Part shown: piece after piece, positions 1 to 6,567 of the stretch
Position numbering within the stretch: position 1 is the first letter of the stretch
How the letters are laid out: each line of letters begins with the position of its first letter
NCBI GenBank assembly: GCA_031280545.1
Contig: JAITGP010000024.1
Coordinates: 1 to 6,700, forward strand
Length of the DNA stretch: 6,700 bases
From: Candidatus Peribacteria bacterium
GTDB lineage: Bacteria; Patescibacteria; JAEDAM01; Absconditabacterales; Absconditicoccaceae
Direction: 5' to 3'
Notes under the pieces: generated by a model
Databases searched by the model: none
What the model was told of the DNA's origin: nothing
Seen by the model: the letters and a program-made list of their open reading frames with translations, nothing else
Made by a program: the position numbers and the translations under genes

Positions 1-2283
1 CTCAGAGAAGGAGTAGGATCTGAGTATACCGCAGAATTGGTAGAAGCTCTAACTACTGCAGATCAACTTATAGGTCCTGATGAAAATGGGAACTATATTT
101 TAACGAAAAATGAAGAGATGCAGCTCATTGATAAATATGGGGAAGGTATAGGAGACTTAAGTGAGGATCCAACAATGAAAGTAGCTATAGAGACCTATCA
201 GTCCACTATCGAAAATGGAGAAAAGTTAGGAGCCCTAACGTTTGACTATATTTTACCCTATGAAAAAGGAATTTATCTAGCAAGAAAAGAAGACATCTTG
301 CTCTATATAGATGCCTCCACAGGACTACCTATAGAAAAACAACAGAAATGAGTAGCACCACTTCATAAAAATACTCCCAAAAAGCTTTTTGATGAGGTAT
401 TTAAAACACTATTACATAGCTATCAGATGTACCTAATAAATAAAAAGGGGATAAATTTCTCTCAAACATTAGAAACTTCTCAAAAACTGACAAAAGATTA
501 CAAAAAATTACTCAATGCTATTTACGGAGTCTACCGCTACTTTTACCATGGAGAAATAACTCCTCATTTGGCATGAAAAAACTCGGAATTATGGGAGTGA
601 ATGTTAGAATTCCCTGATTTTAAACAAAAATATCCCAATCTCTACTTAGCCGCTCATGAACTTCAAAAAATCAAAGAGATTCTTGTAAATGAAAATGGAC
701 AAGTAGTGGGTTATATCGAAAAAAAAGGAGATAAATACGGATATAGAACTCCTGACAAACAGTGGGATGAAGGACTAGAATATGATGATTTTATAGGACC
801 AGATCCTCAAGGAAATATCATCACCGTAATCAATGGTAAAAAATTTTTTATCAATGATGATTTTCCTTACCCAAAAATGGAATTTGATCAAATCGATGGT
901 CCTGATAGTCAAGGAAATTATGTTGCTCATCAAAAAAAGAAGCAATACTTTATCAGAAAAGATGGGACATTACTTACACTAAATCTCTCCGATTCTGACA
1001 CACAAGAGAGTTGGGATAGAATAGAAAAAATTGATAAAAATCAGAATTATATCCTTGATCAAGGAGAGAGCAGCTATCTAGTAAATGCTGAAGGAAATTT
1101 TATCTCTAATGCCTATCTAGATATTAGCACAATAGATGATTGTGGATATTACCAAGCAATAACTCCTGAAGGAGGAGTAATATTATTAGATAAAACGGGA
1201 AAAGAAATTCTCTCTCAAGCCTATGGAAAAATCAGACTATTATCCGGTGGAGAATATGAACTTTCTCTCAATGGAAAAATAGGACTCTACACTATAGAAA
1301 AAGATGCATTACAGCTTGAATGCATCTATGATGAAATTATTCCTCTTACAGGTGAAGTTTACCAGGTACGAAAAGATGGAACATGCTGACGATGGAAAGA
1401 TACAGGAGAATTTATAGTACCTCTAGGAAAATATGAAGACATTTCCGATAAAAATGCACAGGGATTTTATCCTGTATCCAAAATTGGGAAAAATAAAAAT
1501 CTTACTAAAATTTCCTTGGGACTTCTGGATCAGGAAGGAAAAGAAATTATCCCTTGTGAACGGGAAGCTATCATCTGGGACAAAAAAAGAGGATACAATT
1601 GTACTAGACGAACAGAAGATAATAAAAAATTAGAAATGCATTACAATATTGAAGAGAATTATCTGAAAAATGGAAATTATGGAGTATATGACAAACATGA
1701 TATAGATGAGGACCCAAAAAAGGAGAAAGAAAGAATTCGACTCCAATTACTCAATACCAAAAATCCAGATGGTAGTAAAAAATGGGAATGGGTAGATGAA
1801 GCAGATAAAAATGGGCTTTTCAAAGTAACAACACTTGATGAAGAATATCTTTTAACAAAATATGGAATGATGAAAGATCCAGATACAGTAATTATTCCTT
1901 GTGAGTATGATAAAATTTCTTTACATAAGGATGGGAAATATCTCGCTACCATGCCAGATAGAGAACATATCTATGATTATGAAGGTACAATGCATCACTA
2001 TAAGCTAGGAGATGAAAGCAACGCTGATAGAGATGAAAAAATAAAAGCATATCGCGATCTCTGCAATGCAGGAAGACGAGAAATGGTAGACGAAGCAGAT
2101 AAAAATGGGCTTTTCAAAGTAACAACTGTCAATCTAGCAGAATTAGAAATGAAATGTGGGATCATGAAAGATAAAGATACAGAGATCATCCCTTGTAAAT
2201 ATGATAAAATTTCCCTTCTCCCTGACGGAACATATCGTTGTCTTCTCCATGGAGAGGAAATTATCATAGCTCCTCAAAGATAA
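1..2283 (+). CDS. WG-repeat-like protein, 5'-truncated, containing four UGA (Gly) codons
   Basis: A single frame is open from the first base to TAA at 2281-2283 (760 residues visible; the true start lies upstream). It is interrupted only by TGA at codons 117, 192, 200 and 463. Read as glycine these give one continuous repeat protein. Repeats are degenerate: a GPDxxGNY element recurs three times (codons about 24-31, 268-275, 300-307). WG/KWG-like units follow, with a conserved glycine then D/K, and IIP plus YDxI (for example NGKIGLY, LGLLDQEGKEIIPCE, KYGMMKD, KCGIMKD). The last two units (codons about 597-650 and 695-748) are a recent duplication. WG repeats (Pfam WG_beta_rep) are beta-rich modules of mostly unknown role and are abundant in some CPR genomes. 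No signal peptide or membrane segment is seen in the visible part, but the N-terminus is missing. Function is unknown. Under the standard code it would be miscalled as several fragments or a pseudogene. Intactness is well supported; the repeat family is fairly sure. Confidence 0.85.
349..351 (+). other. In-frame TGA read as glycine (codon 117)
   Basis: TGA sits between EKQQK and VAPLHKN. The same frame continues on both sides without TAA or TAG, and 74 further codons follow before the next TGA. Nothing in the local sequence identifies the amino acid here; glycine is assigned from the better-supported TGA at 1387. Confidence 0.7.
574..600 (+). other. Two in-frame TGA codons read as glycine (codons 192 and 200)
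   Basis: TGA occurs at 574-576 and again at 598-600, flanking KNSELWE, in the frame of the repeat protein. The ATG at 601 directly after the second TGA would be taken as a start under the standard code, but there is no Shine-Dalgarno-like sequence before it and the upstream frame is coding-like. A true gene start at 601 is therefore unlikely. Confidence 0.7.
1387..1389 (+). other. In-frame TGA at a conserved glycine of a WG-like repeat (codon 463)
   Basis: The unit KDGTC-TGA-RWKDTGEFIVP aligns without gaps to the general WG pattern KDGKWGLIDKTGKEIIP, placing the TGA on the glycine. It also aligns with sister units in the same protein: KCGIMKD near codon 719, KYGMMKD near codon 621 and NGKIGLY near codon 427. 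This is the strongest internal evidence that UGA encodes glycine here. It argues against tryptophan, which is supplied by TGG throughout the window. Confidence 0.8.
1791..1953 (+). repeat. Repeat unit A of a duplicated domain in the WG-like protein
   Basis: This is the first copy of an approximately 160-base unit repeated 294 bases downstream (98 codons, in frame). The first 42 bases differ at only one position from bases 2085-2126 (T at 1797, C at 2091). After that, identity falls at the DNA level but the protein pattern persists: VDEADKNGLFKVTT, then a KYGMMKDPDT segment and IIPCEYDKISL. Confidence 0.85.
2085..2247 (+). repeat. Repeat unit B of a duplicated domain in the WG-like protein
   Basis: This second copy has VDEADKNGLFKVTT, KCGIMKDKDT and IIPCKYDKISL at the same spacing as unit A. 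The near-identity of the first 42 bases beside strong divergence of the next 40 suggests either partial gene conversion or strong selection on that segment. Confidence 0.85.
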
Positions 2284-2344: not shown

Positions 2345-2372
2345 TTGACTTTATAGAGCAAATAATTATAAT
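2345..2372 (+). promoter_or_regulatory. Sigma70-type promoter for the E2-JAB-E1 operon
   Basis: A -35 box TTGACT (2345-2350) and a perfect -10 box TATAAT (2367-2372) are separated by 16 bases, within the 166-base gap between the repeat protein and the operon. Transcription would begin near 2379-2380, giving a leader of about 70 bases. GAGCAAA occurs twice (2356-2362 and 2384-2390), flanking the -10 box. The second copy also begins a weak inverted repeat GAGCA/TGCTC (2384-2388 with 2397-2401). These could be operator half-sites, but this is speculative. No convincing terminator hairpin was seen after the upstream gene. Confidence 0.65.
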
Positions 2373-2449: not shown

Positions 2450-4375
2450 ATGGTAAAAAAGAAAGAGGAGATTCCTCGAGAAGAAAACAAACGTAGATAC
2501 GTCAATCTTTTTTCTAATGAAGTAAAAACAAATTACTTCAATAAGGGAAATGAAGATGTAAAAAAGCGGATCGAAAAGTTGTGGGAGAGTATCCCTCTAC
2601 TCAGAAACCGTATTGTATCGCTCACTGACGATATCGAATCGATCGAAAACAAGGGGGGCCTTCGACAGAGGCTGGTCAAAGAGTTTAGTGACTTACTAAG
2701 CAGTCCAGATATTCTTAAGATAGAAGTATCTGGTGAAGAAGTCATAGTTTATACAGATCTTCTCTTTTGTTGGGACTCAAAGAACAAAGTGTACCGAGCA
2801 ATCGGTAAATTTAAAATCACTCTTGATCGATCAAAAAAAGATAAAGACTCTGAAGGGGTCTATTGGAAAAATCTGACAGATCCACGTAAAGGGCTGTCAG
2901 ATAGTGGATTAATGCAAGCTCCTCACATTTATCCAGAAGGGTATGCATGTCTAGGAAACAGAAAATCCATATTCAGAGATCTCCTTCAAGAAAGAGAATA
3001 TGCCTCAGCGATAGATCTTGCCATTCAATTCGTGCAATACGCAAACGTTAATGATTCTGCTGGTAAATATGTTGATCAATGGCCAGAAGCCACTAGTCAA
3101 CGCAATGCAGAAATGAAACGCAGAGAAAAAGAAGCTGAAGCACGCAGAGATGACAACTATGAGCTCAGAGAAAAACTCCAAAATGAGATTGACTCAATTG
3201 AAAAGAAAAAAAATCAAGCAGAAGAAACATTTTCCTCCCTTCAAGAAGATTGGACGAAAAAGAACAAAGCTTATTCTAAACTTCAGAGAGAGTACAATCA
3301 ACTTTCCAGAGAGATCAAGGAATTTACCGTTGAACCAAAAATTGCAGAGCTGAAGGAAAAAAGAACTCAAAGAGAACTCACCTTATCTCAGCAATCGCAA
3401 CAGCGACAAAAAGAATTGGGAAAAGAAAAAAAACAACTTAAAAAGCCTGGTAAATTCTGGCTAGGAGTTGGAGAATTCTTTTCAAAAAGCTGGAGTTGGA
3501 CTCAAAAACAGCAGGAAAAATTTGATACAGAATTTGCATTTTTTACTCAAGAGACTGAGCGAATAAATCTATTAATCCAAAAAGAAGCCAATGAGTTATC
3601 AGAAGCTTTAACATTAAAAGAAATAGAGTATAACAAAGCATGTAGTGCGATTCGTATGGCAGGAGGGAAACTCTTAAAACTCAAAAAAGACCTCCTCGCA
3701 GAAAAAGAAACTGCATTACAGACAGCAAAAGTCGAATATGAAAATGTTAATGATCTGTGGGAAGATGCGAAACAAAAGGTTAACGAGTTAAAAGGACAAC
3801 TATCCTTAAAACAAACGAGCCTGAAGCAAGCAACTCCCAAATTCAAAACTCCTGCTCGAAAAGAGAGGAAAGAGGATCGAGAGAGATACGTCGCTCTCAT
3901 CATAGATCAATTAAATGATGGAGATGAACTCAGAACCATGCAAACAAAGCTAAAAGACGCCGAGGAAACCTTAAAAAAGAATTCCGAGGAATACATGAGG
4001 CTTACTGGTATTGATTTTGCGAACAGTCATAAAACAGATCTTGAAGAGTATTTTGCAGAGCAATTTGAAAGAATTTCCAGTTTACCAGAAGTTGAGAAGA
4101 TCTCTATAGAAGCATATGAAGGAATAATAATCCTAAATATCCTAACTAAAAAGATAGAACTTGATTCTGGGTATGAAGAAATTTTTCAAATACAGATCTC
4201 GCGACAAGGATTTGCCTTTTATAAAAAGGGTGATGAAAACCGCATTATCTGGATAGAGCAACCTCACGGTAGTGAGGTAAGAAATGCCTTCATGCAACTC
4301 AACGGAAACTATGAACATGAGCGACTAATTCGCAAAATGTTTAAGTTTATAAAAACATTTAAAATAAAAAGATAA
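2450..4375 (+). CDS. Ubiquitin-conjugating (E2)-like protein with long coiled coil
   Basis: This 641-aa protein likely carries an activated ubiquitin-like protein as a thioester. Residues about 75-212 resemble a prokaryotic E2/UBC-like domain: a helix, beta-strand stretches (KIEVSGEEVIVYTDLLF, then KFKITLDR), and PHIYPEGYACLGN at 158-170. The last matches the E2 active-site pattern HPxI..G..CL and makes Cys167 the candidate catalytic residue and His159 the conserved His. After it come a helix (ASAIDLAIQFVQYA) and the AGKYVDQWPE segment. Residues about 215-515 are charged coiled coil (K/E/Q/R-rich), broken at 331-350 by an aromatic stretch (PGKFWLGVGEFFSKSWSW). Residues about 530-641 form a folded-looking alpha/beta end that may be a second, Cys-less E2-like domain. 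The only other cysteines are 107 and 398. It is the first gene of the operon and overlaps the next by one base. The E2 call rests on motif and context; substrate and partner are unknown. Confidence 0.72.
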   Translation: MVKKKEEIPREENKRRYVNLFSNEVKTNYFNKGNEDVKKRIEKLWESIPLLRNRIVSLTDDIESIENKGGLRQRLVKEFSDLLSSPDILKIEVSGEEVIVYTDLLFCWDSKNKVYRAIGKFKITLDRSKKDKDSEGVYWKNLTDPRKGLSDSGLMQAPHIYPEGYACLGNRKSIFRDLLQEREYASAIDLAIQFVQYANVNDSAGKYVDQWPEATSQRNAEMKRREKEAEARRDDNYELREKLQNEIDSIEKKKNQAEETFSSLQEDWTKKNKAYSKLQREYNQLSREIKEFTVEPKIAELKEKRTQRELTLSQQSQQRQKELGKEKKQLKKPGKFWLGVGEFFSKSWSWTQKQQEKFDTEFAFFTQETERINLLIQKEANELSEALTLKEIEYNKACSAIRMAGGKLLKLKKDLLAEKETALQTAKVEYENVNDLWEDAKQKVNELKGQLSLKQTSLKQATPKFKTPARKERKEDRERYVALIIDQLNDGDELRTMQTKLKDAEETLKKNSEEYMRLTGIDFANSHKTDLEEYFAEQFERISSLPEVEKISIEAYEGIIILNILTKKIELDSGYEEIFQIQISRQGFAFYKKGDENRIIWIEQPHGSEVRNAFMQLNGNYEHERLIRKMFKFIKTFKIKR

Positions 4376-4377
4376 TG
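4373..4377 (+). promoter_or_regulatory. TAATG stop-start overlap between E2-like and JAB genes
   Basis: The TAA stop of the E2-like gene shares its last A with the ATG of the JAB gene. No clear Shine-Dalgarno sequence precedes this ATG, so translation of the second gene is probably coupled to the first, which would keep the two coiled-coil proteins at similar levels. Confidence 0.75.
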
Positions 4378-5805
4378 GGAAATTTAATTAAAAAATGGTT
4401 CATTCTTAAGTTCTCTTGGCATCCTCGCTCTTTCGGTGCATTCATTAGAAATGAACGAAAACTCCAAAAAGAACGACAAAAGCTCCGTAAGGAAGATATC
4501 CACGAAGATCATTGTCGGCAATGGGAAGCGTTTAGAGAAGAATGGCAGAAAAAAGACGAGGCACTAGTAGAAACCTATGGGGATAGAAATAGAGGCCTCG
4601 GACCATTCAGAGAAGCCTCATATAAAAAGAGGCAAGCTGAAAGAGAACTCAAAAATAAATTGGAGAAAGACTATGACCAGCTTCCCAAAGAGGATGAAAA
4701 ATACTCTGAATGGGAAAAAGGAAAATGGAAAGCTTTCTTTGATGGCACATTAGAGAAAGAGCACGATCCAATGGAGAGTGATTATCCTAGTGAAGTCTTA
4801 GAACAAAGACGAGAAGCACAAAAAGAAGTTGATCATCAACGAAAGCTTGACGCTCAACAGCAACGAGCGATTGCACATCAACAAAAAAGAGAAGCTGATG
4901 CTCAACGCCGTCAACAGAAGGCTGAAGAACAAAAGCAACGTGAACAAGCCCGAATAAGGCAAAAGCAAAAGGAAGCTGAAGCGAAAGCTTTAGAAAAAGA
5001 AAAAAATGAATTATTTAATAAACTATTCAAAAATAAAGAAATGAAACATTGGTTCAAGAGATGGAAAAAAGGAGATGGAGAAACTCCTGAGGAAAAGTTC
5101 TATAACTTTGTCCCCGAAAAATTTGAGAGTCAACCGTTTGGTCATACAGGACAAACAACGGTACGAATCACAAAATACCCAAAAATCATTTTTACGAAAA
5201 AAATGGACAAAATGATCAGAAAGATCGTTGGGCTAGCACCCGAAGAGATCGGCTGGTTTTGCGGTGTGAGAAGAGATGAATTACATCCGGAACAATTCTG
5301 GGTTGAGAATATTTATATTCTTGACCAAAAGACGTCGCCGGCCAACTGTACATTGGACTCGAAAGATTTAGCAAGACTCATGGAAGAGCTTGTCGCAAAA
5401 GGCGAGGAAGGTGAAGCAGAACTTGAGAGAATAAAATTCTGGGGACATTGCCATGTCAAATTCGAAGTTAACCCAAGTTCTCAAGACGTACAAACGTTTG
5501 ACAAATTCGGGTTACCTGAGGAATTTTATATCAGAGGAATTTTCAACAAATTAGGTGCCGTAAGGCTTGACTTAATGGTTAAAGCCTTTGGTCTCTTCTT
5601 TGAAAACGTAGAATTTATGGTCTCTGACCCTGAATTCGATCGGGAAATTGAAAAAATGGCCCGTATATTGGAGCCAAAAATCACTCCGAGTATAGACCGT
5701 CGCCCATTATTTAATAGAACTCCCACAGATACCAATACGGTCACAAGTTTTGGATCTGAAGAAGAGGACGAAAATGATCACCAAGAAATGGGAGTAGGAG
5801 TATAA
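4375..5805 (+). CDS. JAB/JAMM (MPN) metalloprotease with N-terminal coiled coil
   Basis: This 476-aa protein is a likely deconjugating or precursor-processing isopeptidase. The C-terminal domain (about 260-420) has the full JAMM zinc motif: Glu290 or Glu291 (PEEIGWFCG), His358-Cys-His360, seven residues, then Ser368-x-x-Asp371. It continues with the family-like segments EEFYIRGIFNKLG and LFFENVEFMV. It resembles the prokaryotic JAB proteins found beside E1- and E2-like genes rather than the RadC type. Residues 1-25 are basic and aromatic (KKWFILKFSWHPRSFGAF) but too polar for a membrane span. Residues about 25-215 are charged and helical, with a Q/K/R/E-rich coiled coil at about 142-215. A proline/threonine-rich linker and an acidic tail (SEEEDEND) end in GVGV. 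Most known JAB partners in such operons are much shorter, so the coiled-coil extension is notable. It is translationally coupled to the E2-like gene and 21 bases from the E1-like gene. No key catalytic residue is missing. Confidence 0.88.
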   Translation: MGNLIKKWFILKFSWHPRSFGAFIRNERKLQKERQKLRKEDIHEDHCRQWEAFREEWQKKDEALVETYGDRNRGLGPFREASYKKRQAERELKNKLEKDYDQLPKEDEKYSEWEKGKWKAFFDGTLEKEHDPMESDYPSEVLEQRREAQKEVDHQRKLDAQQQRAIAHQQKREADAQRRQQKAEEQKQREQARIRQKQKEAEAKALEKEKNELFNKLFKNKEMKHWFKRWKKGDGETPEEKFYNFVPEKFESQPFGHTGQTTVRITKYPKIIFTKKMDKMIRKIVGLAPEEIGWFCGVRRDELHPEQFWVENIYILDQKTSPANCTLDSKDLARLMEELVAKGEEGEAELERIKFWGHCHVKFEVNPSSQDVQTFDKFGLPEEFYIRGIFNKLGAVRLDLMVKAFGLFFENVEFMVSDPEFDREIEKMARILEPKITPSIDRRPLFNRTPTDTNTVTSFGSEEEDENDHQEMGVGV

Positions 5806-5826
5806 GAAACTCAAAAATAACAGAAA

Positions 5827-6567
5827 ATGGAAAAGGGTTTTACAAACAAAGTAAGCACGATAAGACACAATGCTGTCTTTAGTGCGACCGCTTTTGGAGA
5901 GACCAGAGTCGACATCATAGGATGCGGGGCCACAGGGTCTCGCATTGCTATGGGATTGGCGAAACTGGGAATTCAAAATTTGCACATCTGGGATTTCGAT
6001 ACTGTTGAATCTCAGAATGTATCCAATCAAATCTTTTATCTTGACGAAGACATCGGTAAAAAGAAAGTAGTTGCCTTAGCGAAACATATTCGCAAAGCTA
6101 CTGGCTTGGAAGTCACAATCCATGATGAAAAAGTAGACGGTAGTCAAGAATTGGGTGATGTAGTATTTTTACTTACTGATACGATGGCATCCAGAAAAGA
6201 GATTTGGGAGAAGTCCATCAGAGATTCGAATGTAAGGATAATGATCGAAACACGTATGAACCCCTTCTCAGGAAGAATCTACATGATTGATCCCAATCAT
6301 TACAATGAATCAAAATTCTGGGAAGAAACACTAAAAAAGGACGGAGAAATCCCTCCTTCACCGTGTGGAGGAAAGACCTCAGTAGGTCCTACAGCTGAAA
6401 GAATATCAGGAGATGCTCAGATCCAGTTTCTGAATTGGATAAACTACAAAAACAGTTTACAAAATCCAAAGCTTGAACAAGTTCAGCATCCCACTAGAGA
6501 AATGGTTATCAATCTTCGACCTATCCCGTCAGTTCTTACTGATGATGACTTGGGCAATGTGTTTTAA
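5827..6567 (+). CDS. ThiF/E1-like adenylating enzyme
   Basis: This 246-aa protein has a single Rossmann adenylation domain of the ThiF/MoeB/E1 superfamily (Pfam ThiF), expected to adenylate the C-terminus of a ubiquitin-like protein. Features in order: IIGCGATGSRIAMGLAKLG (nucleotide loop, Gly32/34/37); DFDTVESQNVSNQ (55-68), equivalent to MoeB DFDTV.LSN..RQ, with Asp56 and Asp58; IGKKK (76-80) supplying the conserved Lys; LLTDTMASRK with Asp118; and SPCGGKTSVGPTAERISG (178-195), where Cys180 is the candidate thioester cysteine and the following helix resembles the ThiF family's post-Cys segment. The MoeB Arg of the NxxRQ motif is Asn67 here. There are no CxxC zinc pairs, no second pseudo-adenylation domain and no ubiquitin-fold domain, so this is a minimal E1. 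The start is the first ATG after an in-frame TAA at 5818-5820. The RBS is weak, consistent with translation in an operon. Confidence 0.88.
   Translation: MEKGFTNKVSTIRHNAVFSATAFGETRVDIIGCGATGSRIAMGLAKLGIQNLHIWDFDTVESQNVSNQIFYLDEDIGKKKVVALAKHIRKATGLEVTIHDEKVDGSQELGDVVFLLTDTMASRKEIWEKSIRDSNVRIMIETRMNPFSGRIYMIDPNHYNESKFWEETLKKDGEIPPSPCGGKTSVGPTAERISGDAQIQFLNWINYKNSLQNPKLEQVQHPTREMVINLRPIPSVLTDDDLGNVF

Follow-up and report, generated by a model that had tools for sequence, protein, structure and literature searches.

What do ubiquitin-type enzymes do in the genomes of bacteria and their phages? The question is raised by positions 1 to 6,700 of contig JAITGP010000024.1, labelled Candidatus Peribacteria bacterium. 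This whole 6,700-nucleotide (nt) stretch is here called the window, and all open reading frame (ORF) coordinates and residue numbers refer to it unless another locus is named. Three adjacent genes were read in the initial annotation as an E2-JAB-E1 operon for ubiquitin-like conjugation, and this holds: ORF1 has a UBC-fold E2 domain with Cys167, ORF2 the full JAB metal motif and ORF3 a ThiF-type E1 with Cys180. Together with the ubiquitin-like protein (Ubl) found beside such enzymes in relatives, they are likely to form a complete conjugation and deconjugation cassette, an accessory and horizontally mobile set that is common to bacteria and double-stranded DNA phages and whose place is most likely in phage-host biology.

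The enzymes and their Ubl

By its sequence, ORF3 is a ThiF/E1 adenylating enzyme, with a match to PF00899 (79.7 bits; cut-off 28.1), a glycine-rich loop and a catalytic cysteine. It has a single adenylation domain and no fused E2 or JAB, in keeping with the minimal single-domain E1 of the initial annotation. In a large protein database 502 proteins are related to it at E 0.001, and 119 among the matches listed share 48-60% identity. The nucleotide-loop glycines and Cys180-Gly181 are invariant in 27 aligned E1 sequences; here and below, the alignments behind such invariance are selected rows of relatives. Against the PDB, the E1 profile finds ThiF best (5e-11), followed by PaaA, MccB, eukaryotic E1s, Cap2 and BubCD among others, the match to the 458-aa BubCD chain (1.3e-5) being confined to residues 183-261.

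For the E2, residues 75-212 of ORF1, on which the initial annotation had rested its reading, were found to have the UBC fold, with Cys167 in the active-site place of E2 enzymes. By this fold ORF1 is a UBC-fold enzyme of E2 type with predicted activity. The column of the upstream His159 is invariant in 32 aligned E2 sequences, and the cysteine is kept in 90 of 118 E2 segments under a strict motif. A search with the domain found eight other proteins, and there is no good model for an E2 of this type in Pfam, NCBIfam or PADLOC. The remainder of ORF1 had been described as a long coiled-coil extension. Its charged middle is probably a coiled coil, judging from composition and weak SMC-like matches, but the extension is probably not coiled coil alone, since the C-terminus appears to add a second, degenerate E2/RWD-like domain, comparable with the tandem E2 genes of relatives. 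Of 107 loci examined, 20 have two E2 domains next to E1, and in L015 and L017 the two are fused. This second domain is supported, although more weakly than the gene identities, the catalytic residues and the first E2 fold, and a Foldseek search with it gave no usable result.

ORF2 contains the JAMM pattern E...H-x-H-x7-S-x2-D, whose five columns are invariant in 16 aligned sequences. The window protein matches the PADLOC JAB model (9e-4) and has no JAB match in Pfam; ten of 16 family members match Prok-JAB at E <= 0.1, and the family profile reaches RPN11 and BRCC36-type chains at about 3e-7. When the whole protein was used as query it found itself alone among 7,994 scored candidates, because words from its charged helices swamped the candidates. 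In one phage locus, L079, a group I intron (7118-7372; Rfam RF00028, 58.9 bits) splits the JAB gene exactly where the catalytic His-Ser-His is encoded. JAB is divided into ORFs in the same way in L080, the Rfam scan having covered L079 of the two.

Relatives encode a small beta-grasp Ubl beside the enzymes, sometimes as two or three tandem units. Its profile matches SAMP2 (1e-8), and 12 of 25 family members match ThiS at E <= 0.1 (best 3e-8). C-termini were counted in 88 loci, near-copies included, using for each locus the Ubl ORF closest to E1: the end is Gly-Asn, with or without one further residue, in 46, Gly-Gly followed by one to three residues in 13, Gly-Gly in six, Gly-Ala in four and something else in 19. 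A Gly-Asn end seems to be unusual. In the tandem Ubls of L071, L079 and L093 the next unit begins straight after Gly-Asn, and units joined in this way look made for a protease. Seven loci assigned to Methylomirabilota by title or to NC10 (L034, L036-L040 and L045) have E2-E1-Ubl without a detected JAB, several of their Ubls ending in bare Gly-Gly; a link between the bare end and JAB loss was considered and dropped, L028 and L033 having both Gly-Gly and JAB.

Where is the Ubl of the window? It is probably truncated by the window end. ORF4 starts 36 bases past the E1 stop codon, and in the clade of the window E1 all eight of the other loci that could be read have a Ubl directly after E1, starting 5-64 bases past the last E1 codon (40 in the window). 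The 32 residues of ORF4 score 0.4 bits against the Ubl profile, a value also reached by 23 N-termini in a set of 300 unrelated ones and by nine of 200 shuffles, so that the case for ORF4 as the Ubl is argued from position.

A cycle of conjugation can be proposed from these parts. The JAB protease would cut behind the terminal glycine of the Ubl, made as a precursor or in tandem form; the E1 would adenylate the Ubl and hold it on Cys180, and transfer to the E2 would follow, onto Cys167. Held on the same chain by the coiled coil, the degenerate second E2 domain would act in the manner of a ubiquitin E2 variant (UEV), orienting the acceptor, whether a target lysine or another Ubl, and the JAB protein could take the tag off again. 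The ThiF match of the E1 and the resemblance of the Ubl to ThiS and SAMP2 would also suit a sulfur-transfer or cofactor pathway of ThiS/ThiF type with an added JAB peptidase, in which the 'E2' is a scaffold and not a conjugating enzyme. We consider this highly improbable, given an E2 fold with a widely kept cysteine in the E2 place, the tandem Ubls, and the lack of any thiamine or molybdenum-cofactor gene among nine neighbours scanned.

The three enzyme genes are closely packed, ORF1 and ORF2 overlapping by one base and ORF2 and ORF3 being 21 bases apart (Table 1). Promoter-like sites are not enriched in the region (4 found, against 9.6 in shuffles), and the one listed is a consensus match alone. 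An Rfam scan of the window gave no match at gathering scores.

Table 1. Features of the window
Feature	Position	Strand	Details
ORF0, WG-repeat protein	1-2283	+	four in-frame UGA; upstream of operon
Promoter-like site	2345..2372	+	TTGACT-16-TATAAT; 11/12 consensus matches
ORF1, 641 aa	2450..4375	+	E2 domain, long charged middle (probably coiled coil), probable degenerate C-terminal E2/RWD-like domain
E2 (UBC-fold) domain	2672..3085	+	ORF1 residues 75-212; His159; active-site Cys167 = codon 2948-2950
Probable second, degenerate E2/RWD-like domain	4007..4372	+	ORF1 residues ~520-641; without Pro-His...Cys motif
ORF2, 476 aa	4375..5805	+	long charged N-terminal extension; C-terminal JAB/JAMM domain (residues ~262-430); E291, H358, H360, S368, D371
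ORF3, 246 aa	5827..6567	+	minimal ThiF-type E1; GCGATG loop; Cys180 = codon 6364-6366
ORF4 start, 32 codons	6604..6700	+	interrupted by window end; Ubl slot in 8/8 readable clade relatives

Linkage and distribution

Do the same genes travel together elsewhere, as the initial annotation had said they should? We fetched 107 loci by their E1, 68 from 84,980 species genomes and 39 from virus contigs (IMG/VR), keeping near-copies, and searched with profiles the ORFs on the E1 strand, counting the parts within 6 kb of E1. Both E2 and JAB lie near E1 in 86 of the 107; taken singly, E2 is found in 93, JAB in 95 and Ubl in 88, and all four parts are present in 77. In 69 of the loci the sequence extends past E1 by over 3 kb on the 5' side and over 1.5 kb on the 3' side; E2 and JAB accompany E1 in 62 of these, and all parts are present in 61. 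The exceptions are L027, with none of the parts, L037, L039, L040 and L045, without JAB, L041 and L042, without E2 and Ubl, and L066, without Ubl. As a control, the four profiles were applied to 4,029 opposite-strand ORFs, without a single match, and on the E1 strand the matches number 112, 99 and 96 near E1 against 2, 4 and 0 far from it. The order is E2-JAB-E1 in 68 of the 86 loci, E1-JAB-E2 in 16 and another in two; within the 68, the Ubl lies directly 3' of E1 in 31, 5' in 27 and elsewhere in one, and was not found in nine.

By record title, the organisms include members of the Candidate Phyla Radiation (CPR; Doudna-, Kaiser-, Falkow-, Moran- and Parcubacteria), Obscuribacterales/Melainabacteria, Methylomirabilota, Myxococcales, Bacteroidota and Bacillota, and neither Gracilibacteria nor Absconditabacteria appears in any title among the 68 genome records. 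The conjugation system is not peculiar to reduced genomes, a setting in which the initial annotation had considered a complete set striking. Its prevalence is low and patchy: with the centre genome counted, the E1 occurs in five of 379 genomes of the phylum of L007, and in 15 of 194 genomes of the class and 15 of 53 of the order of L005. Plasmid records gave distant ThiF matches only, none over 80% of the query.

In 11 cellular loci (L002-L006, L008, L011-L014 and L016), mostly titled Melainabacteria/Obscuribacterales, clustering places a gene of 757-860 aa directly 3' of E1, and the two examples checked by Pfam encode Clp-type double-AAA ATPases. Such a neighbour is what one might look for if the Ubl delivered targets to an Hsp100 unfoldase, as part of protein quality control. 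This reading seems to us improbable, however, since the ATPase cluster is limited to these cellular loci, neither phages nor other bacteria being represented in it, and no Clp-type ATPase was seen in the window. Moreover, what we take to be the ClpP-docking loop is absent, by eye, from the printed stretch of all 11, which makes degradation unlikely.

Traffic between phages and cells

Phage and cellular sequences are intermingled in the E1 tree. Mapped on its 138 rows, the phage label has to change 14 times, and well-supported branches force eight or more of these changes, implying repeated exchange between phages and cells; several branches are long, and single placements are unsure. The viral label itself stands mainly on IMG/VR. 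Matches to phrog_2, presumably a terminase, were found in ten of 18 virus records and to PF03237 (Terminase_6N) in five, 12 having one or the other, but the same models also match 11 and six of 14 control genomes, and terminase was set aside as weak proof of phage nature. When viral contigs were scanned with one protein at a time, neither the window E1 nor its relative P0002 brought up a related sequence. The phage neighbours scanned include DNA polymerase A and a SNF2/DEAD-type helicase. More distant versions exist in phages with named hosts, PhiXhv-12 (Xanthomonas) and Fpv3 (Flavobacterium), with an E2-like HPH...CLG protein (profile E 6e-4) by ThiF and a JAB (5e-10) by ThiF. In L113 (3238-6612) and L114 (4674-6606), from Xanthomonas and Flavobacterium phages, a distant E2-like or JAB gene adjoins a gene annotated as a thiamine biosynthesis protein.

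The window E1 falls within three nested sets, of seven rows with six metagenome proteins (97/81), of nine rows with Kaiserbacteria L020 and phage L076 (96/92), and of 23 rows with seven phages (98/97); around the window the last comprises seven phage, one cell and 14 unplaced metagenome rows. A Kaiserbacteria and a Peribacteria-labelled protein are among the E1s near the window. In five phage loci of this clade (L069, L070, L072, L073 and L077), clustering shows the cassette flanked by a Mre11-like gene on its 5' side and a Rad50-like gene on its 3' side; L071 has both of them on the 5' side, and L076 is in neither cluster. Identity checks gave 1e-22 for the Rad50 of L070 and an SMC/AAA assignment for that of L072, and for Mre11 2e-6 in L071, with no Pfam match, and a weak 1.4e-3 in L070. 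Beyond Rad50 there is a second, divergent Ubl-E2-JAB-E1 set in L070 and L072, a second E1 with further parts in L069 and L073, and a further Ubl and JAB in L077. A Rad50-like neighbour suggested by clustering at L020 was dropped, the adjoining gene being an ABC-transporter permease (YtrF/MacB-like).

Is the window, then, itself from a phage? ORF0, upstream of the operon, is open only if UGA specifies an amino acid. Its Pfam score is equal with UGA as Gly and as Trp, and by eye the repeat 'DGTC*RW' lines up with 'NGKIGLY', 'GDKYGYR' and 'NGNYGVY', which suggests Gly. ORF1-3 hold no in-frame UGA: the operon has 0 against 68 Gly codons and ORF0 four against 62 (hypergeometric p ~0.05, by hand), and G+C content at third codon positions (GC3) is 0.31-0.38 in the operon genes and 0.235 in ORF0. 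These differences are a weak hint that the operon has had a different history. Of the UGA-recoded, probably CPR host of the initial annotation, the recoding is seen in the WG-repeat gene only; given the lack of UGA in the operon, its higher GC3 and the mixed nearest E1 clade, the contig may be from a recoded CPR cell or from its phage.

It is possible, if somewhat doubtful, that the contig is phage or prophage DNA, the host being a UGA-recoded CPR bacterium, and that the cassette serves the phage, in host take-over or DNA-end protection, instead of the cell. The seven phage rows in the 23-row clade against one cell row, the setting between Mre11-like and Rad50-like genes in five loci and the contrast of ORF1-3 with ORF0 would all agree with this. 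On the other hand, no phage gene was recognised in the window, ORF0 upstream encodes WG repeats and uses UGA as a sense codon, the near rows include the Peribacteria-labelled protein and Kaiserbacteria L020 with its permease flank, and the UGA difference only reaches p ~0.05. A more specific proposal, which we rate as quite unlikely, is that the E2-UEV pair and a Gly-Asn-ended Ubl or polyUbl modify proteins at DNA ends, the cassette being built in large phages into the Mre11-Rad50 pair, as a counterpart of Ubc13-Mms2 DNA-repair signalling, and exchanged with CPR and Obscuribacterales hosts.

The functional hints conflict, the phage copies examined lying among replication and recombination genes and a Clp-type ATPase following E1 in 11 cellular loci. 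With about even confidence, we place the cassette among mobile conjugation modules that act in phage-host conflict or control, and leave uncommitted the side that it serves in the window. Phages that themselves encode the three enzymes and the Ubl, in some cases as two sets flanking Rad50, would offer a direct test of the targets of viral tagging in a bacterium. Likewise, the pairing of an active with a degenerate E2 and the tandem Ubls joined at Gly-Asn bear on the origins of polyubiquitin and of UEV partners.

Comparison with known systems

How does the cassette relate to ubiquitin-like systems already described? In the open literature that we searched, mostly by listing and with the key Bil and Bub papers outside its scope, no description of this family was found, which is no proof of absence. 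Features that are new here are the probable second E2 domain, the unmodelled E2, the sharing between bacteria and phages, the Mre11/Rad50 setting in five phage loci and the Gly-Asn ends of about half of the Ubls. With the cassette, the ubiquitin-like systems gain a lineage, found in phages and candidate phyla, whose E2 is missing from the Pfam, NCBIfam and PADLOC models.

A first comparison is with Bil (BilABCD), in which Ubl, E2, JAB and E1 are likewise encoded together. Bil reportedly attaches its Ubl to a virion protein and so spoils assembly, and an anti-phage defence operon working in this way would share with our cassette the same four activities, the patchy distribution and the exchange with phages. 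We nevertheless think this unlikely here. The phages themselves carry the cassette, among replication and recombination genes, and no defence neighbour was seen, the neighbours not having been scanned with PADLOC. The proteins differ too. As described in a 2024 review (PMC11354881), the Bil E2 (BilB) has a CEHH motif, Cys-x5-Glu-x-His-x4-His, and the Bil E1 (BilD) is a two-domain pseudodimer of an inactive and an active adenylation domain. The window E2 reads C167-LGNRKSIFRDLLQ, without CEHH although the upstream Pro-His is present, its E1 is a single 246-aa ThiF domain, and its E2 protein has the probable second, degenerate E2 domain. The initial annotation was therefore right that the layout is unlike Bil.

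Defining features of the other systems were taken from that review, from Iyer et al. 2006 (PMC1779556) and from an EMBO J 2026 paper (PMC13373217). Type 6d of Iyer et al. also has four separate genes for Ubl, JAB, E1 and E2, but according to PMC1779556 the His of its E2s lies downstream instead of upstream, and a JAB-N domain and an additional helical protein are present, whereas the upstream His159 is kept here in all 32 aligned sequences. Type 6e combines polyUbl, an inactive E2/RWD and a JAB-E1 fusion, and tandem Ubls and inactive E2-like domains do occur in our family; however, the E2 here is of active type, and the window JAB and E1 are separate ORFs. The CBASS (cyclic-oligonucleotide-based antiphage signalling system) Cap2/Cap3 and types 6a/6b share E1, E2 and JAB parts and an E2 with His and Cys, but have E2 and E1 fused, separate ORFs in the window, and linked nucleotidyltransferase or metallo-beta-lactamase genes, of which there is none within 6.7 kb here on an interrupted contig. 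PRTRC cassettes, which are found on mobile elements, also have a ThiF relative, but the window E1 scores 40 bits against the TIGR03736 cut-off of 144.75.

In eukaryotes, Ubc13-Mms2 consists of an E2 and an inactive UEV partner. The pairing of active and degenerate E2 folds is similar by analogy, except that here both folds would lie on one chain, where the second may play a UEV-like part. In terms of the features available for comparison, the cassette is akin in kind to Bil, 6d, 6e, CBASS/6b and PRTRC but is not placed in any of them, differing from each in features tested.

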